Shown: in pieces, positions 32,601 to 50,932 of the stretch | Numbering within the stretch: the first letter of the stretch is position 1 | How the letters are laid out: every line of letters begins with the position of its first letter | Assembly: GCA_028718565.1 (NCBI GenBank) | Contig: JAQULO010000003.1 | Span: 19,999 to 73,291, forward strand | Reading direction: 5' to 3' | From: Syntrophales bacterium | Lineage (GTDB): Bacteria > Desulfobacterota > Syntrophia > Syntrophales > UBA2210 | DNA length: 53,293 nucleotides | Notes under the pieces: generated by a model | The model's input: only the letters and a program-made list of their open reading frames with translations | Told to the model about the DNA's origin: nothing | Database searches by the model: none | Program-made: the position numbers and the translations under genes

Positions 32601-34281
32601 GGGAACAACGTACACAACGAAAAGGGCTGAAAGAATGAAGGTCAAACTGCTGGTTCTGCTTGTTGTTCCTCTGTTTTTATACATTATGCTGTTGCCCGCC
32701 ATGCCCCTGATGGAACCGGATGAAGCGCGGTACAGCCATATCCCAAGCCTGATGAACAGTACAGGAGACTATGTCACTCCTCGCCTTCATCATGTGGTAT
32801 ACCTTGAAAAGCCTCCTTTGTGTTATTGGGCAACAGCCCTGTCATTCAAGATATTCGGTGAAAACGATTTTTCATCAAGGCTTTTTGTGGGGTTATGCGC
32901 CTGGGGATGTATTATTCTTGTATATTGTATTGGCGTGTTCTTCGCCGATGAAAAGACCGGGGTATACTCAGCAGGGGTCCTGACCACATTCCTGTTTCAT
33001 TTTGCTTTTGGAAGATTAAATATATTGGATATCCCCCTTGCTTTCTTCGTATGCCTCGCTATCTGGGCCGGATATCGGTATATAGAAAAGGGGGGCAGGG
33101 GGCGGGCCTGGATCTATCTCTTCTATTTTGCGAGCGCTCTGGCTTTTCTGACCAAGGGATTGATCGGCATTGTTTTCCCATTCGCGATACTGATTCTCTG
33201 GCTACTCATCTCCCGGAGGTGGCGTTCTGTCTTTATGCTCTTTTCACCTGTAGGGGTTATAATCCTGCTCGCAGTATCATGCCCCTGGATAATACTCGTG
33301 CAAAAGGCGAACGAGGATTTCCTATGGTTCTTTTTCATTCATGAACACCTTCTGAGATATGCAACAGATGCATGTCGCCGAGAGGGCCCCCTCTACTATT
33401 ATGTCCCAATTATTATAGCAGGCACGCTGCCGTGGTGCGCTTTTCTACCCGAGGCCACGACAGGAAACACTAACAAGAAAATGCTCTTTCGGGGGGATAT
33501 TGACTGGCGCTTTCTTCTTACATGGATTGTCTTCATGTTTGCGTTCTTTTCGCTTTCTTCGTCTAAGCTGATACCCTACATGACGCCCCTATTCCTGCCT
33601 CTGGCGATAATCTTCGGATACGTTTTCAGTCTCTACGACGACCGTGGCTCCACGCAACGCTCACGGAGGCTCGTTCTCCTGCCGGTTGTCATCCAGTCCT
33701 GCATTCTTATCATCCTGCTTTTTGTTCCCCTTTTCCTTGCGAGACACACTATTACGGCAAGCGAATGGTTACCCCGTATAGCACTGCCCATTCTGGCGCT
33801 GATCCTGATCGTATTTGTCCCTGGTATCGTTAAAAGGCGATGGGGCAAGGGGTGGTTCCTCTCCATCTACCTGCTCTCCGCACTGTTTATGGCTTCACTG
33901 TTCCCCCCCGCCTCCTATTTTCTGACCCCGTACAAATCGGCGTATCCTGTGTCACAGGCAATCAAGACCATGCTTCCCCCCGGTGAAGAACTGTTTCAAT
34001 ATGGGATTGCACTCTATGGGATCGATTTTTACAGCAAGATACGAACACCGATCGTTGATGATTTCGGAGAATTAAGTTTCGGTATCAAGAGACTCCCTTC
34101 CAATGAAAGATCCCACTATTTCCTGACATCGGAAGACTTCTTCCGGTTATGCAGAGAAAAGGGTGATATATACTGCGTGACGAAATATGAAAGAAGGGTT
34201 GCCAGGCTGAAAGAGGAAATCCCTGAGGTCCAGATTATATGGGACAACGGGGCCTACTTTCTCCTGCGGTTACGATGTTAA
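32590..34281 (+). CDS. arnT: ArnT-like lipid A aminoarabinose transferase (GT39/GT83)
   Basis: 563 residues with about 12 membrane helices. The first periplasmic loop has EPDEARYSHIPSLM near residue 43, whose Asp-Glu pair is catalytic in ArnT and PMT enzymes, then YVTPRLHHVVYLEKPPLCYW. It transfers 4-amino-4-deoxy-L-arabinose from undecaprenyl phosphate to lipid A in the periplasmic leaflet, giving resistance to cationic peptides. The presence of arnB, C, A and D directly downstream makes ArnT much more likely than another GT39 enzyme. ATG 32638 is an alternative start that avoids the overlap. Confidence 0.88.
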   Translation: MMREGTTYTTKRAERMKVKLLVLLVVPLFLYIMLLPAMPLMEPDEARYSHIPSLMNSTGDYVTPRLHHVVYLEKPPLCYWATALSFKIFGENDFSSRLFVGLCAWGCIILVYCIGVFFADEKTGVYSAGVLTTFLFHFAFGRLNILDIPLAFFVCLAIWAGYRYIEKGGRGRAWIYLFYFASALAFLTKGLIGIVFPFAILILWLLISRRWRSVFMLFSPVGVIILLAVSCPWIILVQKANEDFLWFFFIHEHLLRYATDACRREGPLYYYVPIIIAGTLPWCAFLPEATTGNTNKKMLFRGDIDWRFLLTWIVFMFAFFSLSSSKLIPYMTPLFLPLAIIFGYVFSLYDDRGSTQRSRRLVLLPVVIQSCILIILLFVPLFLARHTITASEWLPRIALPILALILIVFVPGIVKRRWGKGWFLSIYLLSALFMASLFPPASYFLTPYKSAYPVSQAIKTMLPPGEELFQYGIALYGIDFYSKIRTPIVDDFGELSFGIKRLPSNERSHYFLTSEDFFRLCREKGDIYCVTKYERRVARLKEEIPEVQIIWDNGAYFLLRLRC

Positions 34282-34301
34282 TTCTGTAGAGGTTACAACA
34301 T

Positions 34302-35453
34302 ATGAACATACGAGAAGATTTTCTCCCCTTGAGCAGGCCGTCAATTGGGGAAGAAGAGGTGCGCGCCGTTGTCGCGTGCCTTAAATCAGGGTGGATAACA
34401 ACGGGGCCTGTCTGTAGGGAATTCGAGGATAGATTCCGAGAGCTTACGGGAGCATCTCACGCGATATCCTTAAGTTCGGGAACGGCCGGGATGCACCTTA
34501 TGATGCTCGCCCTGGGGCTCAAAGAGGGGGATGAAGTCATAACACCCTCCTTGACCTTTGCCTCCACCATCAATATGATTACCCTGTGCGGCGCACGCCC
34601 CGTCTTTGTCGATATTCACTACGACTCCCTCAATATAAATGCGGATCTGATCGAAGAGGCGATCACCGAGAGGACAAGGGCTGTCATCCCGGTCCATTTT
34701 GCGGGTGCCCCCGCCGACATGGACAAGATCATGGATGTTGCGGGAAGACATGATCTTGCCGTAATTGAGGACGCCGCACACGCATTGGGTACCGCCTATA
34801 GGGGCATACATGCCGGTGGATTTGGACAGAGCGCCGTCTTTTCCTTCCACCCCCTGAAAAATATCACGACCGGAGAAGGGGGCATGATAACGCTCAGTGA
34901 TGATCAGGTCGAAAGACGCGTGCGACTTCTCAGGTTTCACGGAATCGAGCGGGATGCGTGGAAGAGATACGGTAAGGGGGGAACCCCCGAATATGATATC
35001 AGCGAACCCGGCTTCAAATACAACCTGACGGACATCCAGGCAGCCATGGGATTGGTTCAGCTTGCCCGACTGGAAAAGCTCAACGAACGCAGGAGAAAAT
35101 TGGCCGCTCTCTACACAGAGGGCCTCATCGATCTGGAGGGTATCGATATCCCAGGTATTCCCCCATACCCGCACGTTCACTCGTGGCATCTTTTCGTCGT
35201 CAAGGTAACGGGAATGGCCAGGGAGGCGTTTATGAAAAAACTGGCGGATTACAATATCGGGTACGGTATCCACTTCCCCGCGTGCCACCGACTCGGATAT
35301 ATCGAAAAAAGCTACGGAATCATGGAGGACAACTTGCGGGAAACCGTACGGGTAGGCGATAGGATTGTATCCCTCCCTCTTTTTCCTGATATGAAGGACA
35401 GCGATGTCCTCTACGTCTGCGAGGCGGTCAAGGAGATCGTGAGTAATGGATAA
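34302..35453 (+). CDS. arnB: UDP-4-amino-4-deoxy-L-arabinose aminotransferase (DegT family)
   Basis: 383 residues. PLP-enzyme features are SLSSGTAGMHLMMLAL near 57, EDAAHALGT (Asp157 contacts the PLP ring nitrogen) and SFHPLKNITTGEGG with Schiff-base Lys186. It converts the UDP-4-keto-pentose made by the ArnA decarboxylase to UDP-aminoarabinose using glutamate. The gene overlaps arnC by 8 bases. The context is decisive, since DegT aminotransferases are otherwise hard to tell apart. Confidence 0.9.
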   Translation: MNIREDFLPLSRPSIGEEEVRAVVACLKSGWITTGPVCREFEDRFRELTGASHAISLSSGTAGMHLMMLALGLKEGDEVITPSLTFASTINMITLCGARPVFVDIHYDSLNINADLIEEAITERTRAVIPVHFAGAPADMDKIMDVAGRHDLAVIEDAAHALGTAYRGIHAGGFGQSAVFSFHPLKNITTGEGGMITLSDDQVERRVRLLRFHGIERDAWKRYGKGGTPEYDISEPGFKYNLTDIQAAMGLVQLARLEKLNERRRKLAALYTEGLIDLEGIDIPGIPPYPHVHSWHLFVVKVTGMAREAFMKKLADYNIGYGIHFPACHRLGYIEKSYGIMEDNLRETVRVGDRIVSLPLFPDMKDSDVLYVCEAVKEIVSNG

Positions 35454-36402
35454 TACAATGATTTCTGTGGTAATTCCCGTGTACAATGAGGATGCAAATA
35501 TCTCTCATCTTATGGAGCGTCTCAGGCCCGTCATGGAGGGAATGAACAAAAGATATGAGATTATCCTGGTGGATGATGGGAGTAGCGACAGGAGTCTTGC
35601 CCTCATGAAGGGGTTTACGACACACCCCGAGGTACGGGTCGTGGAACTTACAAAAAACTACGGACAGCATGCCGCCATCTTTTCGGGGTTCTCCATTGCC
35701 ATGGGGGATATTATAGTAACCATGGATGCCGACCTCCAGAACCCCCCCGAAGAAATCCCCAATCTCGTAAGGGTTATGGAGGAGGGGGGATATGATGTCG
35801 TCGGAACCATACGAAAAGAAAGGAAGGACTCCATCTTCAGGACTCTTCCTTCCAGAATCGTAAACAGCTTTGCGAGAAAGATGACGGGGATTCGCATGAC
35901 CGACTGGGGGTGCATGCTGAGGGCCTATCGACGGAACATCGTGAAGCACATGTCGGACTGTCGCGAACAATCCACCTTCATCCCCGCCCTGGCGGTATAT
36001 TTTGCCAAACGGGTTACGGAGATTGAGGTAAAACACGAGCAGCGATATGCGGGGACATCACACTACTCGCTGAGGAAACTCATTAACCTCCAGTTTGATC
36101 TCGTGTCATCCTTTTCCGATTTCCCCCTGAAGCTGATTATGTATGCCGGCCTTGGAATGGCCTTTCTTGGCATCTCGTTGGGTGCCATCATCGGAATCTC
36201 CCGGCTTGTGTACGGTGCCGCCTGGGCGGCCGAGGGTGTCTTTACCCTCTTTGCCGCCCTGTTCGCTTTTATCGGTTTTCAGTTTTTCGCCCTCGGCGTC
36301 ATGGGTGAATATATAGGCCGCATATATAAAGAGGTCCGGAGGAGACCGGAGTACGTCATCGACAGGGTCCACTCCTCTGACAGCGAGGGAGATGCCCGAT
36401 GA
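35446..36402 (+). CDS. arnC: ArnC-like undecaprenyl-phosphate aminoarabinose glycosyltransferase (GT2)
   Basis: 318 residues. The cytosolic GT2 domain opens ISVVIPVYNEDANI, with VDDGSSDRS near 46 and the metal-binding VTMDADLQNPPEE near 90. Two C-terminal membrane helices (about 225-285) anchor it to the inner membrane. It links formylated aminoarabinose to undecaprenyl phosphate. It overlaps arnB upstream and the formyltransferase downstream by 4 bases. Confidence 0.9.
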   Translation: MDNTMISVVIPVYNEDANISHLMERLRPVMEGMNKRYEIILVDDGSSDRSLALMKGFTTHPEVRVVELTKNYGQHAAIFSGFSIAMGDIIVTMDADLQNPPEEIPNLVRVMEEGGYDVVGTIRKERKDSIFRTLPSRIVNSFARKMTGIRMTDWGCMLRAYRRNIVKHMSDCREQSTFIPALAVYFAKRVTEIEVKHEQRYAGTSHYSLRKLINLQFDLVSSFSDFPLKLIMYAGLGMAFLGISLGAIIGISRLVYGAAWAAEGVFTLFAALFAFIGFQFFALGVMGEYIGRIYKEVRRRPEYVIDRVHSSDSEGDAR

Positions 36403-37322
36403 AGGTGGTTGCATTTGCCTACCACAACATGGGCATTGTCGGCCTTGAGGCCCTGAGGGGGGAAGGGTTCGACATACGGACGGTCATTTCCCATGATGAC
36501 GACCCCGGAGAGAACTGCTGGTTTGGCTCGGTTGTACAGTGGGCGAAAGAAAACGGGATACCGGTACGCTGCCCGGCGGATGTTAATTCGCCCGAGTGGA
36601 TTAAAAAGATACGAGATATATCGCCGGACATTCTCTTTTCCTTTTACTACCGCAATCTCTTGAGCAACGCTATCCTGTCCATCCCCCCGGCAGGTGCGTA
36701 CAATCTGCACGGTTCTCTCCTCCCGGCCTATCGGGGGAGGTGCCCTGCGAACTGGGTCCTCGTCAATGGTGAAACAAAGACGGGGGTTACCCTGCATCAC
36801 ATGGTGAGGGCGGCGGATGCGGGGGACATCGTGGGACAAAGGGAAATAACAATAGGGGCGGATGACACCGCCCTGACCCTGTATGCAAAGCTTTGCGGGG
36901 GCGCAAAGGAGCTTCTCGAAGAACTCCTGCCCCTAATAAAGAAAGGCACGGCGCCGCGCATCCCCCAAGATCTGAAAGCGGGCAGCTATTTCGGCGGCAG
37001 AAAACCGGAAGACGGAAAAATAGACTGGCATTGGCCCACATCGAGGATATATAACCTCATACGGGCCGTTACCGATCCCTACCCCGGGGCCTTTACCTTT
37101 CTTCCCGGAGGGGAGAAGATGCTCATCTGGTGGGGAAAACCGGGGCGGCAGGAAAACACGCGCATTGGGGAGGGCGAAGTGGAGATAGAAGACGGGACGG
37201 TCTTTGTGGGGAGTGGTGACGGCAGGGTACACCTTATGGATATCCAGATTGCGGAAACCAGGATAAAAGGGAACGCGATATTTGACTACTTTAAGGGAAA
37301 GAGGGGAATGATTCTGAAATGA
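36399..37322 (+). CDS. arnA: UDP-aminoarabinose formyltransferase (ArnA N-terminal half as separate gene)
   Basis: 307 residues. The folate-dependent formyltransferase fold is seen in FAYHNMGIVGLEAL at the start, NLHGSLLPAYRGRCPANW (catalytic Asn and His) near 102 and RAADAGDIVGQ (catalytic Asp) near 138. It formylates UDP-aminoarabinose so that ArnC can use it. In enterobacteria this domain is fused to the decarboxylase in one 660-residue ArnA; here the two are separate genes overlapping by 4 bases. Confidence 0.9.
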   Translation: MKVVAFAYHNMGIVGLEALRGEGFDIRTVISHDDDPGENCWFGSVVQWAKENGIPVRCPADVNSPEWIKKIRDISPDILFSFYYRNLLSNAILSIPPAGAYNLHGSLLPAYRGRCPANWVLVNGETKTGVTLHHMVRAADAGDIVGQREITIGADDTALTLYAKLCGGAKELLEELLPLIKKGTAPRIPQDLKAGSYFGGRKPEDGKIDWHWPTSRIYNLIRAVTDPYPGAFTFLPGGEKMLIWWGKPGRQENTRIGEGEVEIEDGTVFVGSGDGRVHLMDIQIAETRIKGNAIFDYFKGKRGMILK

Positions 37323-38341
37323 AGATCTTAATATTCGGTGTTAACGGTTTTATCGGGCATCACCTGACAAACAGAATACTGGGCACGACCGACTGGTCCG
37401 TCTATGGTATGGACCTCGGTGTCGATAGACTGAGCACATCGCTGGATAATCCCCGTTTTCACTTCCTGGAAGGTGATATCTCCATAAACAAGGAGTGGAT
37501 AGAGTACCATATCAAGAAATGCGACGCCATCCTGCCCCTGGTGGCCATAGCCACGCCAAAGAGTTATGTTGAAAACCCGGTCGGGGTCTTCAATCTGGAC
37601 TTTGAGATGAACCTCAACATCATAAAACAATGTGTCAAATATCACAAACGGGTCCTCTTCCCTTCCACGTCTGAGGTGTATGGAGCCTCCACCGATCCGG
37701 AATTCAAGGAGGATGAAACCTTCCTTGTCGTAGGACCCATACAGAAAGAACGCTGGATTTATTCATGCTGCAAACAGCTTCTCGATCGCGTTATTTACGC
37801 CCACGGCACCAGAGGCGACCTGGAGTTTACCCTCTTCAGACCTTTCAACTGGGTCGGCCCGCGCTTGGATTCACTGGATACTGCGAAGGAAGGAAGTTCC
37901 AGAGTCGTCACCCAGTTTATCGCGGAGCTTCTCATGAAACATCCCCTGTCTCTTGTGGACGGAGGCGGCCAGAAGAGGTGTTTTACCTATGTTGACGACG
38001 GTATAGACGCCCTTATGAAGATCCTGGAGAATAAAGACGACTGCTGCAAGAATCAGATCATCAATATCGGCAATCCCCATAATGAATGTTCCGTAAAAGA
38101 ACTTGCCTGTATACTGAAAAAGATCTTTATGGAACACCCTGACCATAAAAGCGACCCGGTTTACTCCGAGATTGTCGAGGTGTCCGCCGGTTCCTTCTAC
38201 GGGAAGGGATACCAGGACATCTATACCAGAAAACCCAGCATTGAAAAGGCACAAAAGCTCCTGGGCTGGACTCCCGCGACCGGGTTGGAAGAATCGCTCA
38301 GAAAGACGCTCTATGCCTTTCTGGAGGAAAATGAACGGTAA
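37319..38341 (+). CDS. arnA: UDP-glucuronate decarboxylase (ArnA C-terminal half as separate gene)
   Basis: 340 residues, an extended short-chain dehydrogenase. The NAD loop is IFGVNGFIGHHL at residue 4, PSTSEVYGAS near 120 carries the catalytic Thr/Ser, and WIYSCCKQLLDRV near 145 has the Tyr-x3-Lys pair. It oxidatively decarboxylates UDP-glucuronate to the UDP-4-keto-pentose. The UDP-glucose dehydrogenase that supplies the substrate (ugd) is not in the window. The end overlaps arnD by 11 bases. Confidence 0.92.
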   Translation: MKILIFGVNGFIGHHLTNRILGTTDWSVYGMDLGVDRLSTSLDNPRFHFLEGDISINKEWIEYHIKKCDAILPLVAIATPKSYVENPVGVFNLDFEMNLNIIKQCVKYHKRVLFPSTSEVYGASTDPEFKEDETFLVVGPIQKERWIYSCCKQLLDRVIYAHGTRGDLEFTLFRPFNWVGPRLDSLDTAKEGSSRVVTQFIAELLMKHPLSLVDGGGQKRCFTYVDDGIDALMKILENKDDCCKNQIINIGNPHNECSVKELACILKKIFMEHPDHKSDPVYSEIVEVSAGSFYGKGYQDIYTRKPSIEKAQKLLGWTPATGLEESLRKTLYAFLEENER

Positions 38342-39218
38342 GCCCATCCATCAGGGAAAAGAAAATATCCTGGGACTGAAGATCGATGTTGACACCTATG
38401 TCGGCATGAAGCAGGGTGTCCCCCGCCTGCTTGCCACCCTCTCGCGTTTTGGGGTGAAGGGGACATTTTTCCTCAGCATGGGGCCTGATTCTTCTGGGCG
38501 TGCGATTCTGCAGCTTATTAAAAATCCTCGGTTTCTGAGGAAGATGATGAAGACCAACGCCGGACGGTTGTACGGCATACGGACCGCCCTGTATGGGACA
38601 ATCCTCCCATCTCCCATGATAGCGCTTTCATTTCCGAAACTTGTGCAGAGTATACTATCCGAGGGGCACGAAGTGGAATTTCACGCATGGGATCATCGAA
38701 GATGGCAGGATGATCTGTTTACACATTCCTCGGCATGGATCGAAGAGTGGTTTCAAAAAGGGGTGAGCGCGTACACACGACTGGTCGGCGACAAGCCATC
38801 CTCATTCGGGGCACCCGGCTGGCTGATAGATGACAGAGCACTGGAAATAGCGGGCAGATACGGCTTTTCATATCTTAGTTGTACGCGCGCGCAGGAACCT
38901 TTTATACATGAGGGTCCCGGCCTGATGGAGATACCGTCAGATCTTCCCTGTCTTGAAGAGATCGGTGTCGATACGTTTGTTGCAACCATACGGAGCATCC
39001 TCAATGACGGAGGAATCCACGTACTTCCCGTGCATGCCGAGGCGGAAGGGGGAATATGGAACGAACAATTCACACAACTATTGGAAGGAATTGCCGGTAC
39101 CGGCTGCCGCATAGTCCCCCTTTCGGCCGTAGGGGACCTTCTGCACCCTGAATTACTTCCGGTGAGAAAATACGAGATGACACTCCTGCCGGGACGTGCG
39201 TCTCTGTGTGCGGTATAA
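38331..39218 (+). CDS. arnD: ArnD-like 4-deoxy-4-formamidoarabinose-phosphoundecaprenol deformylase
   Basis: 295 residues from ATG 38331, which has GGAGG four bases upstream, inside the previous gene. It has a polysaccharide deacetylase (NodB) fold: LKIDVDTYVGM (metal Asp), VEFHAWDHRRWQDD (metal His), SSFGAPGWLIDD and LPVHAEAEGG (His). These match ArnD well. It removes the formyl group from the lipid-linked sugar before flipping. It is the last arn gene; a 12-bp palindrome follows at 39226. Confidence 0.9.
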   Translation: MNGKPIHQGKENILGLKIDVDTYVGMKQGVPRLLATLSRFGVKGTFFLSMGPDSSGRAILQLIKNPRFLRKMMKTNAGRLYGIRTALYGTILPSPMIALSFPKLVQSILSEGHEVEFHAWDHRRWQDDLFTHSSAWIEEWFQKGVSAYTRLVGDKPSSFGAPGWLIDDRALEIAGRYGFSYLSCTRAQEPFIHEGPGLMEIPSDLPCLEEIGVDTFVATIRSILNDGGIHVLPVHAEAEGGIWNEQFTQLLEGIAGTGCRIVPLSAVGDLLHPELLPVRKYEMTLLPGRASLCAV

Positions 39219-39601: not shown

Positions 39602-40576
39602 ATGGTAATGGATGATCGGCGGGGAGCAGTTGTTTTTCCGGGACAGGGGTCTCAGCGTCCCGGTATGGGGAAAGACTTTCATGACACGATCCCGGTGAGC
39701 AGGGACACCTATAATGAGGCCTCGGAAGCTTTGGGGTGGGATGTGTCCGCAATGTGTTTTGGGCAGGACGAGCGACTGAATTTGACCGAATACGCCCAAC
39801 CCTGTATACTAGCTACCGAGATTGCCATGTTTCGCGGGCTACAGCTTCTGTATGGCTTTGACCCCAAGTATTTCGGAGGTCACAGCCTGGGAGAATATAC
39901 GGCTCTGGTTACCGCGGGGGTTCTGCCCTTTTCCGACGGACTTAAAATTGTTCATGCGCGGGGTCGTCTCATGCAGGAGGCAACGCCCGTAGGGATGGGT
40001 GGGATGGCAGCCGTGATAGCGGCGGATGGCCTTGACGTTAATGTTGTCCTGCGTGCGCTGGAGGGACTGCAGGTTGATCTGGCGAACAACAATTCCGCCG
40101 ATCAGGTGGTCATAAGTGGTGAGTCAAGCGCGATACCAGAAGCGGAAAAGAGGATCAGGGCGTCTATCGGCGACAATCCCGCTTTTCGTTTTATACCCCT
40201 GAATGTCAGCGCTCCCTTCCACAGCCGTTTCATGAGTGTCATAAAGGAACGCTTCAAGGGGGTGTTGCGTCAGATCGAAACAAAATTAGAGCCCGGCAAT
40301 GCAGGGCGGGTGACGTCAAATTTCACCGGCCTTTTTCATTCGGACAACAGCATTGAAATTATTGATCGAATGGTTTCCCAACTGAGCAATACGGTGCAGT
40401 GGAGAAAAAACATGGAGACCCTTGCCGCTGTGGAGGACTCCATCTTTGAGGTAGGCCCCGGCCGTCCCCTTAGAGGATTTTTCAAGACCATGAATCTGGA
40501 GTGCCAGTCTATTACGACATTCTCGGGAGCGCAAAAGGTATTTGAAAGGGCCAGTGTACCACAGAAGCGGTTGTGA
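39602..40576 (+). CDS. fabD: Malonyl-CoA:ACP transacylase (FabD-like)
   Basis: About 324 residues from ATG 39602, chosen because AAGGGG is 7 bases upstream; ATG 39608 is possible. VFPGQGSQ is at 11-18, the nucleophile Ser95 in GHSLGEY, the malonyl-binding Arg in ARGRLMQEA near 120, and the catalytic His in APFHSRF near 203. It loads malonyl units on the acyl carrier protein. As the first gene of a ten-gene operon with its own carrier, it probably serves this pathway rather than housekeeping lipid synthesis. Confidence 0.92.
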   Translation: MVMDDRRGAVVFPGQGSQRPGMGKDFHDTIPVSRDTYNEASEALGWDVSAMCFGQDERLNLTEYAQPCILATEIAMFRGLQLLYGFDPKYFGGHSLGEYTALVTAGVLPFSDGLKIVHARGRLMQEATPVGMGGMAAVIAADGLDVNVVLRALEGLQVDLANNNSADQVVISGESSAIPEAEKRIRASIGDNPAFRFIPLNVSAPFHSRFMSVIKERFKGVLRQIETKLEPGNAGRVTSNFTGLFHSDNSIEIIDRMVSQLSNTVQWRKNMETLAAVEDSIFEVGPGRPLRGFFKTMNLECQSITTFSGAQKVFERASVPQKRL

Positions 40577-40719
40577 CGCCCGGCAGGTAATCCCTTAGGC
40601 CCTCGCTTCCTGACACCTTGTAGCAGAATCAGTGTGCTTACGACTGCGGGGATCGTTCTCATCAGGGAGCGGATGGACGCCTGATGAGGCCCCCCATATT
40701 TCAGGAGAATATATACAAC

Positions 40720-41919
40720 ATGGATTTTAATCTCACCGATGACCAGCAGGTATATGTAGAGACAGTCCGAAAGTTTGTAAGAAATGAGATAACACCTGAC
40801 GTTATAAACCTGGAACGGGAGCATGCCTTTCCATTCGATATCATCAGAAAGGCGTGGGAGATCGGCCTGCTGAATCTCTCCATTCCTCAATCGGTGAAGG
40901 AATTCGAGGTGGATATCGTTTCGTCGGCATTGATTGTCAGGGAACTGTCCTATGGTGATACCGGCATTTCCACATCGGCGATGTGCAATGATCTGGCAAA
41001 CGTTGTGATTACGCAGAATGGAACGGAAGAGCAGAAACAGGCCTTTCTCAAACCCTTTGTCGAGGCCCCCATCATTTCGGCCTTTTGTCTGACCGAACCC
41101 GGCGCGGGCTCCGATAATTCCGCTATGACGACATTCATCAGAAAGGGAGAAGACGGAAGGTACATCCTCAACGGGGAGAAGTGTTTCATCACCAATGCTT
41201 CGTATGCGTCACAGTTTACCGTTTTCTGCAAGGCCGGAAGCCCCGGCGGTCTTATGATGGCCTGTGTCATTGTCCCGTACAGCGCCCTGCGTGATGCGGA
41301 TATCGTCATGCAGCAATCTGGGGGGAGGGAGATCACCCTGCGGGGAGGCGGCAGGATCATAACGGGGAAACCCGAGGACAAGCTTGGGCAACGCCTGTCA
41401 AATACGGCGACGGTAACCTTTGAGGATGTCGTTCTTGAGGATCATCAGATCATCGGGAACAGGAGGCTCGGGTTCAAATATGCCGTCGATGTACTCGATT
41501 ATGCGAGGCCCATGGTGGCGGCGATCGGCGTCGGCCTTGCGAAGAGAGCCCTTGATGTGACGCTGGAATACACGAAGGAACGCAAACAATTCGGGCAGAG
41601 GATCTGCGATCTCCCGGTAGCGCGGGATACGCTGGTTGAGATGTGGAAGCGGGTTGAACTGGCGGATCTGGCCCTGATGAAGGCGGCGGTCAAGGTTCAG
41701 GAACAGGCCGCCGACAGAGGCATATACGCCTCCCTGGCGAAAAATGTTGCGGCCGAGGCGGCTCTCTTCTGTACCAAGGAGGGGCTCCATCTGCACGGTG
41801 GTTACGGCTTCATGTCGGAGTATGAGATCTCGAAACTGGCGCGGGATGCCCATATCATCGACATATATGAAGGGGTCAGAGAGGTTCAGGATATGATAAT
41901 AGGACGGGAGCTCGTATAG
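40720..41919 (+). CDS. Acyl-CoA dehydrogenase-family flavoenzyme in the FAS-like operon
   Basis: 399 residues from ATG 40720. FAD and substrate segments include FCLTEPGAGSDNSAMTTFI near 125 and CFITNASYASQFTVF near 157, and the catalytic base is Glu384 in IYEGVREVQ. A Gly/Arg-rich stretch around 205-222 (REITLRGGGRIITGK) before EDKLGQRLS makes this loop longer than in SCAD/MCAD. It is placed between fabD and a KAS III gene with only 3 bases to the latter. It may act on carrier-bound acyl chains, either desaturating them or, run backward with ETF, reducing the enoyl intermediate. The substrate is unproven. Confidence 0.88.
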   Translation: MDFNLTDDQQVYVETVRKFVRNEITPDVINLEREHAFPFDIIRKAWEIGLLNLSIPQSVKEFEVDIVSSALIVRELSYGDTGISTSAMCNDLANVVITQNGTEEQKQAFLKPFVEAPIISAFCLTEPGAGSDNSAMTTFIRKGEDGRYILNGEKCFITNASYASQFTVFCKAGSPGGLMMACVIVPYSALRDADIVMQQSGGREITLRGGGRIITGKPEDKLGQRLSNTATVTFEDVVLEDHQIIGNRRLGFKYAVDVLDYARPMVAAIGVGLAKRALDVTLEYTKERKQFGQRICDLPVARDTLVEMWKRVELADLALMKAAVKVQEQAADRGIYASLAKNVAAEAALFCTKEGLHLHGGYGFMSEYEISKLARDAHIIDIYEGVREVQDMIIGRELV

Positions 41920-41922
41920 AAT

Positions 41923-42909
41923 ATGTTGTATCTTCATGGGTTAGGCCATTTTCATCCGGAAAATGTGATTACGAACCGGTTTCTGGAGGAGCTGGACATC
42001 GGAAGCAGCGAGGGATGGATACTGGAGCGGGTCGGCATAAAGACCCGTCGGACAGCCCTGCCCCTGGATTATATCAAGACGACAAAAAATAAGGACCCGC
42101 GGGCCGCTAGGGGAGTCTGCCTGTATACAAATGCCCAGACAGGGGGACGCGCGGCGCGCCTGGCCCTGGAGAGGGCGAGATTGCAGCCCAGAGATATCGG
42201 TATGGTTATCTCGGGAAGCTCCGCACCCGATTACGTCACACCGGCCGAGGCGGCCACCGTGGCGGCGGAGATCGGGGCCGATGTCCCCTGTTTCGATCTT
42301 AATTCAGCCTGTTCCACCTTCGGGATGCAGTTGAAGTTCCTCTCCGACATGAGGCCGGGGATACTTCCCCCCTACGTCCTGATTGTCAATCCGGAGAATG
42401 TCACCCGTGTCATAGATTATTCCGACCGGAAGTCTGCCCCTCTGTTCGGAGACGGGGCCAGCGCCGCCGTCGTGTCCGCGTCCGTTCCCTCGAAGATGGT
42501 ATTTGAGGCCTTTTTCTGTGATTCAAATCCCCTGTCGTGGGACAAGGTCAGAGTCCCCCGCGTGGGACACTTCGATCAGGATGGGGGCGCCGTCCAAGGG
42601 TTTGCAATACGCAAGACGACACAGCTGCTCAGGGAATTACAGGAACTGTACCCTGCAGGATATGAAAGATTCAAGTTTGTCGGGCATCAGGCGAACTTCG
42701 GCATGCTCAAGACCGTGTGCGAGCGGTGCGGGATATCCGAAGAAGATCACTGGAACAATGTTATCGATTACGGCAACGCCGGATGCTCAGGAGCCCCGTG
42801 TGTCCTCAGCCAGCACTGGGATGACCTGCGCGGCGGAGACTATATCGCATTGGCCCTGGTGGGCGCGGGGCTCACCTGGGTTCGTACGATGCTGAAAATA
42901 GTAGAATAA
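41923..42909 (+). CDS. fabH: 3-oxoacyl-ACP synthase III-like condensing enzyme
   Basis: 328 residues with a thiolase fold. The catalytic triad is Cys130 in LNSACSTFG, His in FVGHQANFGML near 249, and Asn in DYGNAGCSGAP near 285. Families with this triad start chains by condensing an acyl-CoA with malonyl-ACP. The N-terminus (YLHGLGHFHPENVITN, then ERVGIKTRRTA) is FabH-like, but the sequence around 60-75 (RAARGVCLYTNAQTGG) is unusual, so the primer may not be acetyl-CoA. The gene starts 3 bases after the acyl-CoA dehydrogenase stop. Confidence 0.87.
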   Translation: MLYLHGLGHFHPENVITNRFLEELDIGSSEGWILERVGIKTRRTALPLDYIKTTKNKDPRAARGVCLYTNAQTGGRAARLALERARLQPRDIGMVISGSSAPDYVTPAEAATVAAEIGADVPCFDLNSACSTFGMQLKFLSDMRPGILPPYVLIVNPENVTRVIDYSDRKSAPLFGDGASAAVVSASVPSKMVFEAFFCDSNPLSWDKVRVPRVGHFDQDGGAVQGFAIRKTTQLLRELQELYPAGYERFKFVGHQANFGMLKTVCERCGISEEDHWNNVIDYGNAGCSGAPCVLSQHWDDLRGGDYIALALVGAGLTWVRTMLKIVE

Positions 42910-42936: not shown

Positions 42937-43533
42937 GTGAACTACTCTGAATTTATGAAAAAAGAAAGCTTTGGACTGAGCGATCTGATCGCCTTTGCCT
43001 ACGGACGGCTTGTGGATAACCCGCCCGAGGAGTTTGACTCCCGACTGCCCGCACCCCCGTTCCTGATGGTGGATCGCATCATTTCGATAGGGGGCAACGG
43101 ACGGAAGGGAACCATTGCCGCCGAGCAGGATATAAAGATGGACGCCTGGTATTTTCAGTGTCACATGCCTGGAGATCCCGTGCATCCGGGATGTCTGTGC
43201 GTGGATGCGATCTGGCAGTTGCTGGGTTTTTACTGCTGCTGGCGAGGGGGATTAGGCGGAGGCAGGGCCTTGGGCTGTGAGGAGATCATCTTCAACGGAC
43301 AGATCCGACCCTATAACAAAACGGTCCGGTATGAGGTCGACGTGAAGCGGTTTGCCAATCTCAAGGATTCGGGTGCGAGCATCGTTATAGGAGATGGCAG
43401 GGTATTTGTTGATGATGAGCTGATCATGACCGTTAAGAAGGCCCGTACCGGAATTTTCAGGGGGATTATCTATCCCGATTACCCGAAGGTGTCCCCCAAT
43501 GCGAAGGGTGGCATTATCGAAAGGAACATATGA
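42937..43533 (+). CDS. fabA: FabA-type 3-hydroxyacyl-ACP dehydratase/isomerase
   Basis: 198 residues, a hot-dog fold. His76 and Asp90 of CHMPGDPVHPGCLCVDAIWQ are the catalytic pair of FabA, which has Asp where FabZ has Glu; ALGCEEIIFNGQIRP follows. FabA both dehydrates and isomerises trans-2 to cis-3 enoyl chains, introducing a retained double bond. It begins at GTG 42937, giving the family-typical NYSEFMKKESF, with a weak ribosome-binding site. It overlaps fabG by 4 bases. Confidence 0.88.
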   Translation: MNYSEFMKKESFGLSDLIAFAYGRLVDNPPEEFDSRLPAPPFLMVDRIISIGGNGRKGTIAAEQDIKMDAWYFQCHMPGDPVHPGCLCVDAIWQLLGFYCCWRGGLGGGRALGCEEIIFNGQIRPYNKTVRYEVDVKRFANLKDSGASIVIGDGRVFVDDELIMTVKKARTGIFRGIIYPDYPKVSPNAKGGIIERNI

Positions 43534-44288
43534 GCCATTCAAGATCAGGCAGTACAGATTCAGAATCGAGACCGGTGGCCATTGTCACGGGAGGCGGCAC
43601 CGGAATAGGCGCCGCATGCTGCGAGGCCCTCTTCCGCGAGGGGTTCAGGGTCGGTGTCCATTACCGGAGGAGTGAGGCCCAGGCGAAGGAGGTTCTCTCC
43701 CGGATCGAGGGCGGATTTCTCCTGAAGGCGGATCTCGCCGTTGTGGACGACGTCGAGGCGATGGTAAAGTCGATCAAGGAGATGACGGGTCGTGTGGATG
43801 TCCTGGTCAACAATGCCGGCGTATCTGTCAACAACGATATCAATTCGATGAAGATCGAAGAGTTTGATCTACAGCGATCAATGCTTCGCGGGACCTGGTA
43901 TCTCACGAAGCGGATACTGCGCCTCTTCATGCTGCGTACGGGGAGCGGGAGGATCATAAATATTTCAAGTGTAGTGGGGCATACCGGGAACAAATGGCAG
44001 ATCCCGTACACGATGGAAAAGGCGGCCCTCGATGCCTTCACAAAGTCTTTAACAAAGGAATTGCAGGGGCGTAATATCCTCGTCAATTCGGTGGCGCCGG
44101 GGTTTATCGATACGGCCATGACCACGGATCTTTCCGATGACGTGCGGCAGGGTATCTCCGAGAACATTCCCTTAGGAAGGATGGGTCGTCCCGAGGAGGT
44201 GGCCGATGTCGTGACCTTCCTTGCCTGTAGGGGCGCGTACATCACGGGGAGCGTGATTCATGTGAACGGAGGGCTCTATGGAGGCTGA
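43530..44288 (+). CDS. fabG: 3-oxoacyl-ACP reductase (FabG-like)
   Basis: 252 residues, a classical short-chain dehydrogenase. The NADPH loop is TGGGTGIG at 20-27, NNAGVSVNNDI lies near 94, and the catalytic Ser147, Tyr160 and Lys164 are in ISSVVG and YTMEK. VNSVAPGFIDTAMT is typical of FabG. It reduces the 3-oxo group after each condensation. It overlaps both neighbours, indicating tight coupling. Confidence 0.92.
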   Translation: MSHSRSGSTDSESRPVAIVTGGGTGIGAACCEALFREGFRVGVHYRRSEAQAKEVLSRIEGGFLLKADLAVVDDVEAMVKSIKEMTGRVDVLVNNAGVSVNNDINSMKIEEFDLQRSMLRGTWYLTKRILRLFMLRTGSGRIINISSVVGHTGNKWQIPYTMEKAALDAFTKSLTKELQGRNILVNSVAPGFIDTAMTTDLSDDVRQGISENIPLGRMGRPEEVADVVTFLACRGAYITGSVIHVNGGLYGG

Positions 44289-44754
44289 TCATGAGACAAT
44301 ACGGCAGGTCTTACAGATTGTTCCCCAGCAGCATCCGTTCCGCTTTCTCGATGACATACTGGAAATGGATGGGGAGCACATTATCGGGGCATATCGATTC
44401 CGGGATGACGAGTACTTCTACCGCGGGCACTTTCCCGGCCGGCCCGTTACCCCCGGGGTTGTTCTGATTGAAACGATGGCGCAGACGGGGGTCGTCGCCT
44501 TCGGCATATACCTGCTCATGCTGCAGGGGATGCCGTCCGACCGGATCAGACAGATGGTCACCCTCTTCGCCATGGTCGATGATTGTGAATTTAACGGCAT
44601 CGTGAGTCCGGGAGAGCGGGTTATCATCAAGGGTGGAAAGCTCTATTTCCGCAGGGGAAATCTAAAAACTAAGGTCAGCATGGAGAGAGAGAACGGGGAG
44701 CTTGTCTGTTCCGGAACGCTGACCGGCAGGGGAGTTGATTCTCATGAAACATAG
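44278..44754 (+). CDS. fabZ: FabZ-type 3-hydroxyacyl-ACP dehydratase
   Basis: 158 residues. His51 and Glu65 of YRGHFPGRPVTPGVVLIETMAQ are the FabZ catalytic pair, and VPQQHPFRFLDDILE the FabZ-like opening. It dehydrates 3-hydroxyacyl-ACP without isomerisation. The co-occurrence with a FabA-type enzyme in one operon suggests that some cycles retain a repositioned double bond. It overlaps fabG and the KAS II gene. Confidence 0.9.
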   Translation: MEADHETIRQVLQIVPQQHPFRFLDDILEMDGEHIIGAYRFRDDEYFYRGHFPGRPVTPGVVLIETMAQTGVVAFGIYLLMLQGMPSDRIRQMVTLFAMVDDCEFNGIVSPGERVIIKGGKLYFRRGNLKTKVSMERENGELVCSGTLTGRGVDSHET

Positions 44755-46021
44755 GGTTGTGGTAACGGGGATGGGCGTTGTGGCGCCGAACGGCCACGGG
44801 CTGATCGATTTTGAACAGGCCCTTCGCGAGGGGCGATCGGGAATCCGATTCTTTCCCCGGCTGGAGGAGCTGAAATTCGCCTGTCAGATAGGGGGGGCGC
44901 CGGAGAGGTTCGATGAGATTCTCACGAGCTATTTTGGCGAGGAAACACTCCTCTCAATGAACGAGAATATCGGATACATATCCGTATCCGCAGTGGACGC
45001 GTGGCGCGATGCGGGATTTAAGGTGCCCGGCGATAATGATCCAGTGGACTGGGAGACGGGCACTATCCTCGGGTGCGGTATCGGGGGTATGGATACGATT
45101 GCCGAAACAGTTGTCCCCATGGTGAGTGAGGGGAGGATACGACGTATGGGGAGCACGATTGTCGAGCGGGTCATGAACAGCGGCACGAGTGCCCGCGTGG
45201 GAGGGTTGCTGGCTTTAGGCAACCAGGTGACGTCAAACTCCGCCGCCTGCAGCACCGGCACGGAGGCCATCGTCGATGCACTGTGGAGGATACGGGCGGG
45301 ACTGGCAAAGAGGATGCTGGCGGGCGGGTCTGAAGGTCCCTCCCCCTACACATGGGCCGGATTCGATTCCATGCGTGTGATCGCGCGCAGGTTCAACGAT
45401 CAACCGGAAAAGGGCTCCCGACCGATGAGCGCCTCGGCGAACGGGTTTGTTCCTGGTGCGGGGGGTGCCGTTTTGGTCCTTGAGGAACTGGAGACGGCAC
45501 GATCCCGTGGCGCGAGAATTTACGCGGAGATCCTTGGCGGAGTCGTCAACTGTGGTGGTCAGCGAAACGGCGGCAGCATGACAGCGCCGAACCCGGAAGG
45601 GGTTCAGCGCTGTATCAGAGGCGCGGTAGCTGATGCGGGGATATCTCCCGATGAAATCGATGCCATCAACGGCCACCTGACCGCCACCTTTGCCGATCCG
45701 TCGGAAGTCAGAAACTGGTCGCAGGCCCTCGGTCGGAGTCCGGCCGATTTTCCCTATATAAACTCGACAAAATCGATGATCGGCCACTGCCTCGGGGCGG
45801 CCGGGGCCATTGAGAGTGTTGCAGTTGTCTTGCAGTTGCAGAAAGGGTTCCTGCACCCGTCCGTCAACTGTGAGGATGTGCATCCCGAGATTGAGGCCTT
45901 TGCGGAGAGGATTCCCCAGAAGGCCATGGAATATCCGGGGCTCAAGGTTATCGCCAAGGCCAGTTTCGGGTTTGGAGATGTTAACAGCTGCCTGATTTTC
46001 AAGAAGTGGGAAGAGGCATAA
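44744..46021 (+). CDS. fabF: 3-oxoacyl-ACP synthase II-like elongating enzyme
   Basis: 425 residues from ATG 44744 (AGGGGAG upstream). The thiolase-fold active site has Cys169 in SNSAACSTGTEAI, His311 in INGHLTATFADPSE and Lys343/His348 in STKSMIGHCLGAAGA. The block around His311 reads NGHLTAT where FabF has AHGTST/AHGTGT, so the substrate tunnel may be modified. It extends carrier-bound chains by two carbons. It is not a chain-length factor, because the Cys is retained. Confidence 0.92.
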   Translation: MKHRVVVTGMGVVAPNGHGLIDFEQALREGRSGIRFFPRLEELKFACQIGGAPERFDEILTSYFGEETLLSMNENIGYISVSAVDAWRDAGFKVPGDNDPVDWETGTILGCGIGGMDTIAETVVPMVSEGRIRRMGSTIVERVMNSGTSARVGGLLALGNQVTSNSAACSTGTEAIVDALWRIRAGLAKRMLAGGSEGPSPYTWAGFDSMRVIARRFNDQPEKGSRPMSASANGFVPGAGGAVLVLEELETARSRGARIYAEILGGVVNCGGQRNGGSMTAPNPEGVQRCIRGAVADAGISPDEIDAINGHLTATFADPSEVRNWSQALGRSPADFPYINSTKSMIGHCLGAAGAIESVAVVLQLQKGFLHPSVNCEDVHPEIEAFAERIPQKAMEYPGLKVIAKASFGFGDVNSCLIFKKWEEA

Positions 46022-46063: not shown

Positions 46064-46309
46064 ATGGACGAACAGCAGATTTTTATGGAGATGGTAGATA
46101 TTTTAAGGCCTTACGTCAAGGATCCGGCATTGCTTGACGGGGCGACAAAGGAAACCCACATACTGGACGACCTTAAGGTTAATTCCGCGCGTCTGGTCGA
46201 TGTGATCATAAAATGCGAGGATGTCTTTGACATCGAGATTGATGACGACGATGCCGATCAGATCAGGACGATCGGGAATGCCGTGGACGTAATAAAAGCT
46301 AAGTTATAG
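46064..46309 (+). CDS. Acyl carrier protein with atypical attachment motif
   Basis: 81 residues, acidic, a four-helix bundle by pattern. The phosphopantetheine site reads ILDDLKVNSARLVDVII, so Ser41 lies in NSA rather than the DSL of primary-metabolism carriers. The rest (CEDVFDIEIDDDDADQIRTI) is a normal ACP helix II/III. Such deviations are found in carriers of dedicated pathways that have their own phosphopantetheinyl transferase, and one is encoded two genes downstream. An AAGGAG site precedes the ATG. Confidence 0.9.
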   Translation: MDEQQIFMEMVDILRPYVKDPALLDGATKETHILDDLKVNSARLVDVIIKCEDVFDIEIDDDDADQIRTIGNAVDVIKAKL

Positions 46310-46316
46310 TGATATC

Positions 46317-47132
46317 ATGAATTGGAAAACAAGATATATGCTGCGTTTGCAGGGCTTGATGGGGCGTCTATCCCTTTTCGTTACCGGTCCCCTGACGCAT
46401 CTGGGTGTAAGGGTGATGGGGTACCGGGTCCGGGATCTCAGAAGGGTGAGAAGGACGATCCGGCAGCTCTTTAAGGAACACGGGGGGCCATGGATTATAT
46501 GCCCGAATCATCTCACCATGATAGATTCCGTGATCCTTCAGTGCGCCATGGCGCCGCTGCACGGTTATATGATCCGATACCGGCGATTTCCCTGGAATCT
46601 GCCGGAGCGTGCAAATTTCCAGAAGAATATATTTCTGGCGGTCTTTTGCTACCTGTCAAAGTGCATACCGATCAGCCGCGGAGGTGACCGGGTACAGATG
46701 AAATCCATTATGGACAGGTGCATCTATCTACTGAAGAGAAGAGAAAGCCTGCTCATCTTCCCGGAGGGGGGGCGTTCCCGCACGGGTCGGGTGAATGTGG
46801 AGAAAGCTTCCTACGGGGTGGGCCGCATGGTGGCCAATGCCCCTGATTGCCGGGTGATGTGCATATATCTTAGGGGAGACGGCCAGGAAACGTACGGCGG
46901 TATCCCCCGATTTGGTGAACGCTTCACCATGCAGATAGAGGCATTCACGCCGGAAATGGAAGGCACGGGTTTGAAGGCGCAGCGGGACTGTGCACGGCAG
47001 ATCGTAGGACGCCTGGCCCGCATGGAGGAAGATCATTTTGATAGGCAACGATATTGTGGATCTTATGACCCCTCAGGCAAGAGGCAAAAGTCGGAATATC
47101 CCCTTCATGGACAGGGTGTTCACGCCGGATGA
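46317..47132 (+). CDS. PlsC-like membrane-associated acyltransferase
   Basis: 271 residues. The HX4D catalytic motif is NHLTMID (His65, Asp70) and the acceptor-phosphate motif is FPEGGRSRTG (148-157). It lies in the cytosolic face of the inner membrane by family. It would transfer the finished chain from the carrier to a glycerolipid or another hydroxyl acceptor. Family similarity ends near residue 240. The last 30 codons overlap the next gene by 95 bases and look like out-of-frame sequence, so the C-terminus is unusual. Confidence 0.85.
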   Translation: MNWKTRYMLRLQGLMGRLSLFVTGPLTHLGVRVMGYRVRDLRRVRRTIRQLFKEHGGPWIICPNHLTMIDSVILQCAMAPLHGYMIRYRRFPWNLPERANFQKNIFLAVFCYLSKCIPISRGGDRVQMKSIMDRCIYLLKRRESLLIFPEGGRSRTGRVNVEKASYGVGRMVANAPDCRVMCIYLRGDGQETYGGIPRFGERFTMQIEAFTPEMEGTGLKAQRDCARQIVGRLARMEEDHFDRQRYCGSYDPSGKRQKSEYPLHGQGVHAG

Positions 47133-47664
47133 GCGGAGACTGATTCGAAACAGCGGCGATCCGGACATGGTCCTCTGGAGTCTGTGGGCTGGGAAGGAAA
47201 CGGGATATAAGGCTGTACGGAGTCGGAATCCTTCCGTTTCTTCCGCCCCTGGGCGGTATGAGGTGCGACCATCCTCCACCGGCGGTCTTCTTTCAGAGTC
47301 GGTTACCGTCCACACCCCCTGTGGTCCGGTATCCCTCCGTTTCTTCATCACCGGTGATTACGTCCACTGTATCGGAGCTACGGTAGAGGAAGATCTGGAT
47401 GGCGTTGTCTGGGATGTCCGGAAGGTCCCCCGGACTCGGCTTTCATCCGATGGTGAATCGAACTTTGTCCGCGAAATGGCGAAAAAGAGCATATCGATCT
47501 ACCTGGGCGAACAGCCGGAAGCCGTCGACATTATCCGCCCGAAAGAAGATGGAGGCCTGGCCCCTCCGGTGGTGTGGGTCGAGGGAAGAACCCCCAATAT
47601 CACTCTCAGCATGAGCCACGACGGTCGGTTTGCCGCCTGTGTGTTTTCGGCTCACCATGCCTGA
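47038..47664 (+). CDS. 4'-phosphopantetheinyl transferase superfamily protein
   Basis: 208 residues beginning at TTG 47038, with GGAGG nine bases upstream. IGNDIVDL at 2-9 carries the metal-binding Asp, DEERRLI-type DERRLI lies near 31, and WSLWAGKETGYKAV near 47-60 carries the metal Glu and phosphate-binding Lys residues. It converts apo-ACP to holo-ACP with CoA. Because the operon's carrier has an atypical attachment site, this is likely its dedicated activator. It reads inside the 3' end of the acyltransferase gene. Confidence 0.87.
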   Translation: MIGNDIVDLMTPQARGKSRNIPFMDRVFTPDERRLIRNSGDPDMVLWSLWAGKETGYKAVRSRNPSVSSAPGRYEVRPSSTGGLLSESVTVHTPCGPVSLRFFITGDYVHCIGATVEEDLDGVVWDVRKVPRTRLSSDGESNFVREMAKKSISIYLGEQPEAVDIIRPKEDGGLAPPVVWVEGRTPNITLSMSHDGRFAACVFSAHHA

Positions 47665-49135: not shown

Positions 49136-49927
49136 ATGCCTCTCAATGTTGTTGTCTGCATAAAACAGGTCCCCGACCCGGAACAGTTCAACCGGATCAC
49201 CCTTGATCCCGCAACCGGCGCCATCCGCAGGGCGGGAATTCCGTCCATCACCAATCCCCTTGACCGGCACGCGATGGAGGAGGCGCTGCTCATACGACAG
49301 CGGTGTGGCGGCACGGTCTCGGCCATCACCATGGGACCGCCTCAGTCACGGAAGATCCTGGAAGACGCCCTCGCCATGGGGTGCGACAGGGGGGCGATCC
49401 TGTGCGATCCGGCCTTTGCCGGCGCGGACAGCCTCGCGACCGCGTACGTTCTATCGGCGGGGATCCGCGCCTTGGGGGCGTTCGACCTCGTCCTCTGCGG
49501 GAACGAATCGGTTGACGGCGCTACCGGACAGGTCACCCCGCAGCTTGCTGAGTTCCTAGACATACCGCACGTAACACACGCGAGGAAGATCACGCTGGTC
49601 GGTGAGAAGGCCGCCCTGGTGGAGCGGGTGGTCGAGGGGGGGCATCTACGGGTCGAGGTTACATTACCCGCGGCGATCTCTGTTCTGAAGGGGATCAACC
49701 GCTACCGTCTCCCCACGGCAATGGGGATTATGGCGGCGGCAGACCGGGAAATTGTCGAATATGACTGCTTTGTGTTCGAGGCCGACGGCGCCAGACCGGA
49801 ATCACCCACGCGGGTGTCCGAGGTCTTTGAATCGTCGCTGAAACGGAAGGTGAAGATGCTCAGCGGCAAGCCGGAAGCCGTTGCCCGTGAATTGCTGAAA
49901 AGACTGCGCGAGATGGAGGTCTTCTGA
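49136..49927 (+). CDS. etfB: Electron transfer flavoprotein beta subunit (second set)
   Basis: 263 residues. LNVVVCIKQVPDPEQFNRITLDP begins the fold and CGNESVDGATGQVTPQLAEFLDIPHVTHA is the nucleotide-binding block. The VDGATGQV form differs from IDNDSTQV in the first EtfB and is closer to what is seen in bifurcating ETFs; that is an inference. A TTGACA at 49098 precedes it, but no convincing -10 follows. It shares its last base with the start of the next gene's region. Confidence 0.93.
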   Translation: MPLNVVVCIKQVPDPEQFNRITLDPATGAIRRAGIPSITNPLDRHAMEEALLIRQRCGGTVSAITMGPPQSRKILEDALAMGCDRGAILCDPAFAGADSLATAYVLSAGIRALGAFDLVLCGNESVDGATGQVTPQLAEFLDIPHVTHARKITLVGEKAALVERVVEGGHLRVEVTLPAAISVLKGINRYRLPTAMGIMAAADREIVEYDCFVFEADGARPESPTRVSEVFESSLKRKVKMLSGKPEAVARELLKRLREMEVF

Positions 49928-50916
49928 TGCGACAGGTCGTGGTCTGGGCGGAGCGTAGAGATGGACGAATTACGGATGTGTCCCTGGAGACACTTCAGAA
50001 GGCGACTCGCCTTGCGAAGGCCCTGAATGGCTCGGTCGCGGCCATACTGATAGGTGATACATGCCGGACGTCCGCCGAAGAACTGATCCATTACGGCGCC
50101 GACAGGGTGTGGCTGATCGAGGATCATCGACTGGATCTATACCAGAGCGATCTGTATGCGAAAATTGTAACGGATATCATCGCGGAGGCCAAGCCGGAGA
50201 TCGTCCTGATGGGGGGGACCTCCATCGGGATGGACCTCGCGCCGCGGGTCGCCGCGAAGCTGAAGACGGGGCTCACCGCGCACTGCATCGACCTGTATAT
50301 CGAGAATATCGACGGGAGAGACCAGCTTATCCCGGTGGTCCCCGGCTGGGGGGGACAGCTGATGGTAAAGATTACGTGCCCGGATCATCGGCCCCAGATG
50401 GCCACCGTCCGTCCCGGCGTCATGGACAGGGGGAGGGTGGATACGTCGCGCAGCGGAGAGATAATCCCGGTCGCACCCACAATCCGCGAGAGCGACTTCA
50501 GGGCGAAGACCCTGGAGATGGTAAAAGAGGAAGAGAAGGAAACGCTGCTGGAGGACGCGCAGATCATCGTTTCCGGGGGGTTTGGCCTCTACGGGTCGGG
50601 GGGCTTTGAACCGGTTGAACGGCTTGCCTCCGCCCTCCACGGCGAGGTGGCGGGGACGAGGCCGGCCTTCGATCAGGGGTGGATACCCGAATCGCGGATG
50701 ATCGGGCAGAGCGGCAGGACAGTGCGGCCGGGGCTCTTTGTCAGCGTGGGGGCCTCCGGCGCGATGCATTACACGACCGGGTTTCTCAAGGCGAAGGTTA
50801 TCGTGGCGATCGACAAGAACCCGATCGCCCCGATATTTGATATTGCCGATTTCGGTATCGCGGAAGACCTAAGCAGGATCATCCCTTGCCTGATTGAACA
50901 ACTGGAGAACCATTAA
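49927..50916 (+). CDS. etfA: Electron transfer flavoprotein alpha subunit (second set), divergent FAD motif
   Basis: 329 residues. The C-terminal FAD block is GQSGRTVRPGLFVSVGASGAMHYTTGF near 258-284, in place of the usual YIACGISGAIQHLAGM; the highly conserved Gln-His of the FAD contact becomes Met-His-Tyr. IDKNPIAPIFDIADFGIAEDL is conventional. The neighbouring acyl-CoA dehydrogenase overlaps in DNA and is its likely partner. The altered motif may shift the flavin potential. Confidence 0.92.
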   Translation: MRQVVVWAERRDGRITDVSLETLQKATRLAKALNGSVAAILIGDTCRTSAEELIHYGADRVWLIEDHRLDLYQSDLYAKIVTDIIAEAKPEIVLMGGTSIGMDLAPRVAAKLKTGLTAHCIDLYIENIDGRDQLIPVVPGWGGQLMVKITCPDHRPQMATVRPGVMDRGRVDTSRSGEIIPVAPTIRESDFRAKTLEMVKEEEKETLLEDAQIIVSGGFGLYGSGGFEPVERLASALHGEVAGTRPAFDQGWIPESRMIGQSGRTVRPGLFVSVGASGAMHYTTGFLKAKVIVAIDKNPIAPIFDIADFGIAEDLSRIIPCLIEQLENH

Positions 50917-50932
50917 CACAGATAGGAGAAGA

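Follow-up and report, generated by a model that had tools for sequence, protein, structure and literature searches.

A putative ETF-linked enoyl-ACP reductase of the acyl-CoA dehydrogenase family in a conserved FAS-II operon of Syntrophales

The acyl-CoA dehydrogenase (ACAD) family usually serves in the breakdown of fatty acids. Several members are nevertheless known for other reactions, and three groups of described enzymes are relevant to the protein studied here. In the first, ETF-linked reduction is established at the CoA level, as in Bcd-EtfAB (PMC5691135); AcrC, Bcd-EtfAB and the caffeyl-CoA reductase CarC carry out the kind of reaction proposed below, the ETF-linked reduction of an alpha,beta-enoyl thioester, but they use CoA esters in energy metabolism and belong to no FAS operon. 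In the second, PigA, RedW and MbtN apply the ACAD fold to carrier-bound acyl groups, yet in the oxidative direction and in natural-product pathways. The third group comprises the enoyl-ACP reductases (ENRs) FabI, FabL, FabV and FabK, which catalyse the pathway step proposed here with SDR or TIM-barrel folds and NAD(P)H, in contrast to the FAD and ETF of an ACAD. All ENRs covered by a 2022 review are SDR-type or FabK-type, and ACAD or flavoprotein ENRs are not mentioned there (PMC9260719). No report of an ACAD-type ENR was found in the literature searched, the coverage of which was incomplete.

The gene in question is located in a Syntrophales bacterium, within a stretch of 53,293 nucleotides that was analysed as a whole (the window). 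The features of the surrounding operon, all on the plus strand, are listed below in window coordinates.

39602-40576, plus strand: FabD-like malonyl-CoA:ACP transacylase, start inferred (the only Acyl_transf_1 protein of the genome)
40720-41919, plus strand: ACAD-family protein of 399 aa, putative enoyl-ACP reductase linked to ETF (N-terminal, middle and C-terminal Pfam domains; AF2 model)
41287-41349, plus strand: insertion of 21 residues (190-210) specific to the clade, within the middle beta domain (alignments; predicted strands)
41869-41871, plus strand: codon of catalytic Glu384, equivalent to MCAD Glu376 (invariant column; mapping to pig MCAD)
41923-42909, plus strand: KAS III, FabH-like (profile matches; Cys/His/Asn motifs read from the translation)
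42937-43533, plus strand: FabA-type dehydratase/isomerase (NF003509, 197.8 bits, cut-off 124)
43530-44288, plus strand: FabG-type ketoreductase (profile matches)
44278-44754, plus strand: FabZ-type dehydratase (profile matches)
44735-46021, plus strand: FabF-type ketoacyl synthase (profile match)
46064-46309, plus strand: dedicated ACP with helix II DLKVNSARLVDVIIKCED (profile match; ACPs of clade loci)
46317-47132, plus strand: PlsC-like acyltransferase, LPLAT (PF01553)
47038-47664, plus strand: 4'-phosphopantetheinyl transferase, PPTase (PF01648)

Domains, fold and catalytic Glu all identify the protein as a member of the ACAD superfamily. PF02771, PF02770 and PF00441 were all matched above their cut-offs in the Pfam search, giving the N-terminal, middle and C-terminal domains, and the AF2 model (pLDDT 91.8) agrees closely with human MCAD (8sgp; VIA Z 53.5, 1.6 A, 376 residues). 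A second in-frame ATG is present at 40684; the homologues begin at the Met of 40720. Glu384 aligns with pig MCAD Glu376 and is invariant in a 48-sequence alignment of homologues, so the intact catalytic residue reported in a preliminary description of this DNA was read correctly. The fold, the position of this Glu and the ETF-contact positions are shared with MCAD; the 36% identity, the 21-aa insertion, the clade-specific changes (N133, R248-R249, M88, D91 and H357 in the alignment) and the FAS-II operon context set the two apart. It matches NCBIfam ACAD families, in each case with a score under the curated cut-off. Acryloyl-CoA reductase AcrC (NF042972) is the top match, with 259.6 bits against a cut-off of 640, and the carrier-protein families PigA, RedW and MbtN give 173.3, 157.4 and 32.9 bits against cut-offs of 500, 650 and 700. 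Twelve further ACADs are encoded in the same genome.

The preliminary description placed this ACAD inside a synthase operon, and the gene content agrees: all FAS-II functions are present save one, as FabI, FabK, FabL and FabV were not found within the operon. The ACAD itself has neither the SDR fold with a YX6K or YX8K motif nor the TIM barrel of FabK, but the ACAD fold instead. Helix II of the operon ACP, DLKVNSARLVDVIIKCED, is unusual and near-invariant across the clade loci, which suggests that this carrier may have dedicated partners.

A scan of genomes detected 39 loci with 71-92% identity to the ACAD, below which identity falls to 42% and less; almost all are labelled Syntrophales, Syntrophaceae, Syntrophobacterales or Deltaproteobacteria. 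Where the contigs are long enough, the order FabD-ACAD-KASIII-FabA-FabG-FabZ-FabF-ACP-LPLAT-PPTase is kept in these loci with few exceptions (FabD undetected beside the ACAD in some, FabG undetected in one). The same order is seen in a closed genome of 3,179,300 bp (G073), which we take to be Syntrophus aciditrophicus and in which the ACAD ortholog occupies C1:2996049-2997242. The linkage of the ACAD to genes for ACP, KS, KR, DH and MAT is conserved, as in a component of FAS-II, throughout the order. At a threshold of E<=1e-100 the gene is present in single copy in 132 of 155 Syntrophales genomes, including 83 of the 92 near-complete ones, with at least 68% identity; among 394 genomes sampled from the phylum, no match was found outside Syntrophales. 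One Spirochaeta-labelled contig (L045) carries a Syntrophales-type FabD-ACAD pair at 81% identity and is probably mis-binned.

Upstream of the operon the neighbourhood varies. About 18 relatives have a divergent NtrC/NtrB-like two-component pair directly upstream (for example L026 6281-9216 and L173 4668-7794), and this pair led to a search for a sigma-54 promoter, in which no convincing or conserved site was found upstream of the operon. In the window its position is occupied by a complete-looking Arn (aminoarabinose) cluster for lipid A modification (32590-39218), with separate genes for ArnT, ArnB, ArnC, a formyltransferase, a decarboxylase and ArnD.

Known ENRs were also sought beyond the operon. 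FabI was not found in this genome, in which the proteins most similar to E. coli FabI are generic SDRs of 23-36% identity. Among the 155 Syntrophales genomes, FabI is convincing in 8 (39-45% identity), ten more have a relative at 32-35%, and one has a partial match. No protein of these 155 genomes exceeded the FabK cut-off, and weaker NMO relatives are common: that of this genome is weakly FabK-like (238 bits against a cut-off of 453), and at E<=1e-60 such NMO proteins were found in 82 of the 92 near-complete genomes. The other ten include two with FabI and eight that, at E<=1e-25, have no FabI either (G009, G010, G073, G074, G075, G084, G085 and G090), all eight of which carry the ACAD operon. 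Conversely, each of the nine near-complete genomes without the ACAD has an NMO match, and at these thresholds every near-complete genome has at least one of the three (ACAD, FabI or NMO). This distribution is consistent with an ENR role of the ACAD, nine operon-less genomes being too few for significance. A search for FabV (PF12241) gave zero matches, with an equally silent control. The near-complete genome G097 has neither the operon nor FabI; therefore another ENR exists in the order.

The state of the housekeeping fatty acid genes is also informative. The housekeeping cluster follows the arrangement yceD-rpmF-fabD-fabG-acpP-fabF, and in this genome acpP and fabF are intact. Between rpmF and acpP-fabF (contig C55, L129 10600-11420), fabD persists as a frameshifted fragment and fabG as no more than its 3' tail. 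No second FabD was found genome-wide, which leaves the operon FabD as the sole copy. Both fabD and fabG are intact in a genome of the same genus (G111). Within the housekeeping cluster, both genes are missing from G073, G035, G009 and G113, and fabD from G145. G013, a 98%-complete genome with FabI, gave no match to the housekeeping FabF; its closest FabF is that of the operon, followed by one more distant protein. Because the sole FabD lies in the operon, the housekeeping fabD and fabG have decayed, and G013 is without a housekeeping FabF match, the operon probably contributes to primary lipid synthesis.

The residues around the active site and the ETF surface were compared with those of better-known ACADs. 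In MCAD and LCAD, the ETF-docking surface has been described as a hydrophobic pocket together with MCAD Glu212 (PMC10925408). The equivalent residue, Glu219, is invariant in 37 of 37 aligned sequences, and the pocket positions Tyr12, Gly49, Leu/Ile50, Leu53, Tyr/Phe62, Val/Ile64 and Ile72 are kept. Judged by its sequence, the protein has these two features of an ETF-dependent ACAD. Regarding the carrier, Arg396 corresponds to MCAD Arg388, presumed to contact the CoA phosphate as in LCAD; since this Arg is conserved, the enzyme may still accept CoA. Asn133 and the Arg248-Arg249 dyad, clade-specific and invariant within the clade, appear to map at or near CoA-contacting positions of LCAD. The dyad lies a few residues ahead of where LCAD has Tyr282, which stacks on adenine (PMC10925408). 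The dyad is an alternative candidate ACP contact, and together with Asn133 it would be a better candidate for ACP recognition than the variable insertion discussed below.

Genes for ETF beta and alpha, followed by a second ACAD, are found at 49136-52066 of the window; the recognition-loop Leu of this ETF beta is seemingly replaced by Ala (by eye). The proximity of the ETF genes (49136-50916) was dropped as evidence, as they lie near the operon only in the window and not in relatives.

The preliminary description had stressed a lengthened Gly/Arg-rich stretch at residues 205-222, before EDKLG, and proposed that it docks the ACP. The lengthening is real. Its true span, however, is 190-210, residues 211-222 being the ordinary strand preceding EDKLG (219-223), and the Gly/Arg-richness is limited to this protein and a few close sequences. 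The insertion is missing from 10 of 10 outgroup ACADs in the alignment; MCAD and eight other ACADs of the same genome are likewise without it, one of the eight differing by a single gap position. No ACAD aligned from outside the clade carries it. In the clade, the 31-residue segment that contains it has 31 residues in 35 of 38 sequences, 30 in two and 23 in one. The insertion is an order-wide feature of the clade, beyond chance. It is predicted to be ordered, with strands at 194-197 and 203-206 (pLDDT about 92, AF2), and by sequence comparison it would lie at the turn leading into the strand ending in the ETF-contacting Glu219. From the LCAD description (PMC10925408) and the alignment, it does not appear to lie at the hairpin used by LCAD near the CoA phosphate. 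Docking of the ACP by this loop was rejected as a main argument and is unsupported because sequence variability within the protein peaks in the insertion (mean entropy of 2.33 bits for residues 190-206, against 0.72 overall), because the net charge of the 31-residue segment ranges from -4 to +2 and is mostly 0 or negative, and because the carrier-protein-dependent PigA aligns end to end without this insertion.

Since the FAS-II set is complete except for an ENR and the ACAD occupies that slot, the ACAD is probably an ETF-linked enoyl-ACP reductase of the Syntrophales FAS-II operon, possibly of a new ENR class. The preliminary description had suggested such an enzyme; that suggestion stands on the context (the operon, the absence of FabI, the single FabD, the decayed fabD and fabG, and the ETF contacts) and no longer on loop docking. 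We infer that the substrate is ACP-bound, the direction reductive and ETF the donor. In the proposed cycle, the operon FabD would load malonate onto the operon's own ACP, KAS III would prime and FabF elongate, FabG would reduce, and FabZ and FabA would dehydrate, with FabA perhaps additionally isomerising toward unsaturated chains. The ACAD would then run in reverse of breakdown, passing electrons from ETF through FAD to the trans-2-enoyl-ACP with Glu384 as the acid, and the LPLAT would hand the acyl chain to lipid. A wider proposal is offered more tentatively, at somewhat less than an even chance: the ETF-linked ACAD-type enzyme may be the main or only ENR in much of Syntrophales, replacing FabI and FabK and using electrons of the syntrophic flavin pool rather than taking them directly from NAD(P)H.

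Other roles for the ACAD were considered. It could supply starters, reducing free CoA esters such as crotonyl-CoA or a cyclic enoyl-CoA to a saturated primer for KAS III. The ACAD gene is almost always next to that of KAS III, whose start lies here 3 nt past the ACAD stop, and both the AcrC match and the Arg at MCAD position 388 agree with a CoA substrate; the operon and several FabI/FabK-poor genomes would then, however, be without an enoyl-ACP reductase, and we consider this role unlikely. An oxidative function, in which saturated acyl-ACP is dehydrogenated to trans-2-enoyl-ACP and FabA converts this to the cis-3 isomer for unsaturated fatty acids, appears still less probable. FabX of H. pylori, of a different fold, is a precedent (PMC8626469), and the operon FabA scores above the cut-off for bifunctional dehydratase/isomerases, but FabA and FabZ already supply trans-2-enoyl-ACP, and the oxidation of acyl thioesters is uphill in a strict anaerobe (crotonyl/butyryl-CoA about -10 mV, PMC5691135).

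It is very improbable that a beta-oxidation ACAD has come to lie in the operon by chance, with the FabK-like NMO or some other protein as the true ENR. Many of the genomes that carry the operon, this one among them, also encode a weakly FabK-like NMO protein that could be the ENR, which weighs against the main reading. Against chance stand the synteny and conservation throughout the order, the dozen other ACADs of the genome, and the clade-specific invariant residues.

If the ENR reading is correct, an essential step that is a drug target would gain a third fold and an ETF-linked supply of electrons, and the enzyme would presumably be unaffected by triclosan and other FabI inhibitors. Moreover, membrane-lipid synthesis in syntrophic anaerobes would be coupled to the ETF pool through which the electrons of their beta-oxidation pass. 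Conservation throughout the order and the reasoning from the missing ENR are of more interest than the original loop argument. The ENR role is a strong hypothesis, which the presumed S. aciditrophicus ortholog renders testable now.

Two other clusters of this genome contain related genes. On contig C2 (L128 5375-12380), a biotin-like cluster encodes proteins resembling BioA, BioF and BioD at their N-terminal ends, together with its own KS, ACP, SDR and FabZ-like genes, and is possibly a dedicated pimeloyl-ACP synthesis system. On contig C11 (L126 7209-18620, L127 1376-5368), several KS genes, ACPs, radical-SAM-like proteins and a phytoene-desaturase-like protein form a cluster that resembles the FAS-II clusters of Desulfotalea and Kuenenia (PMC2649909).
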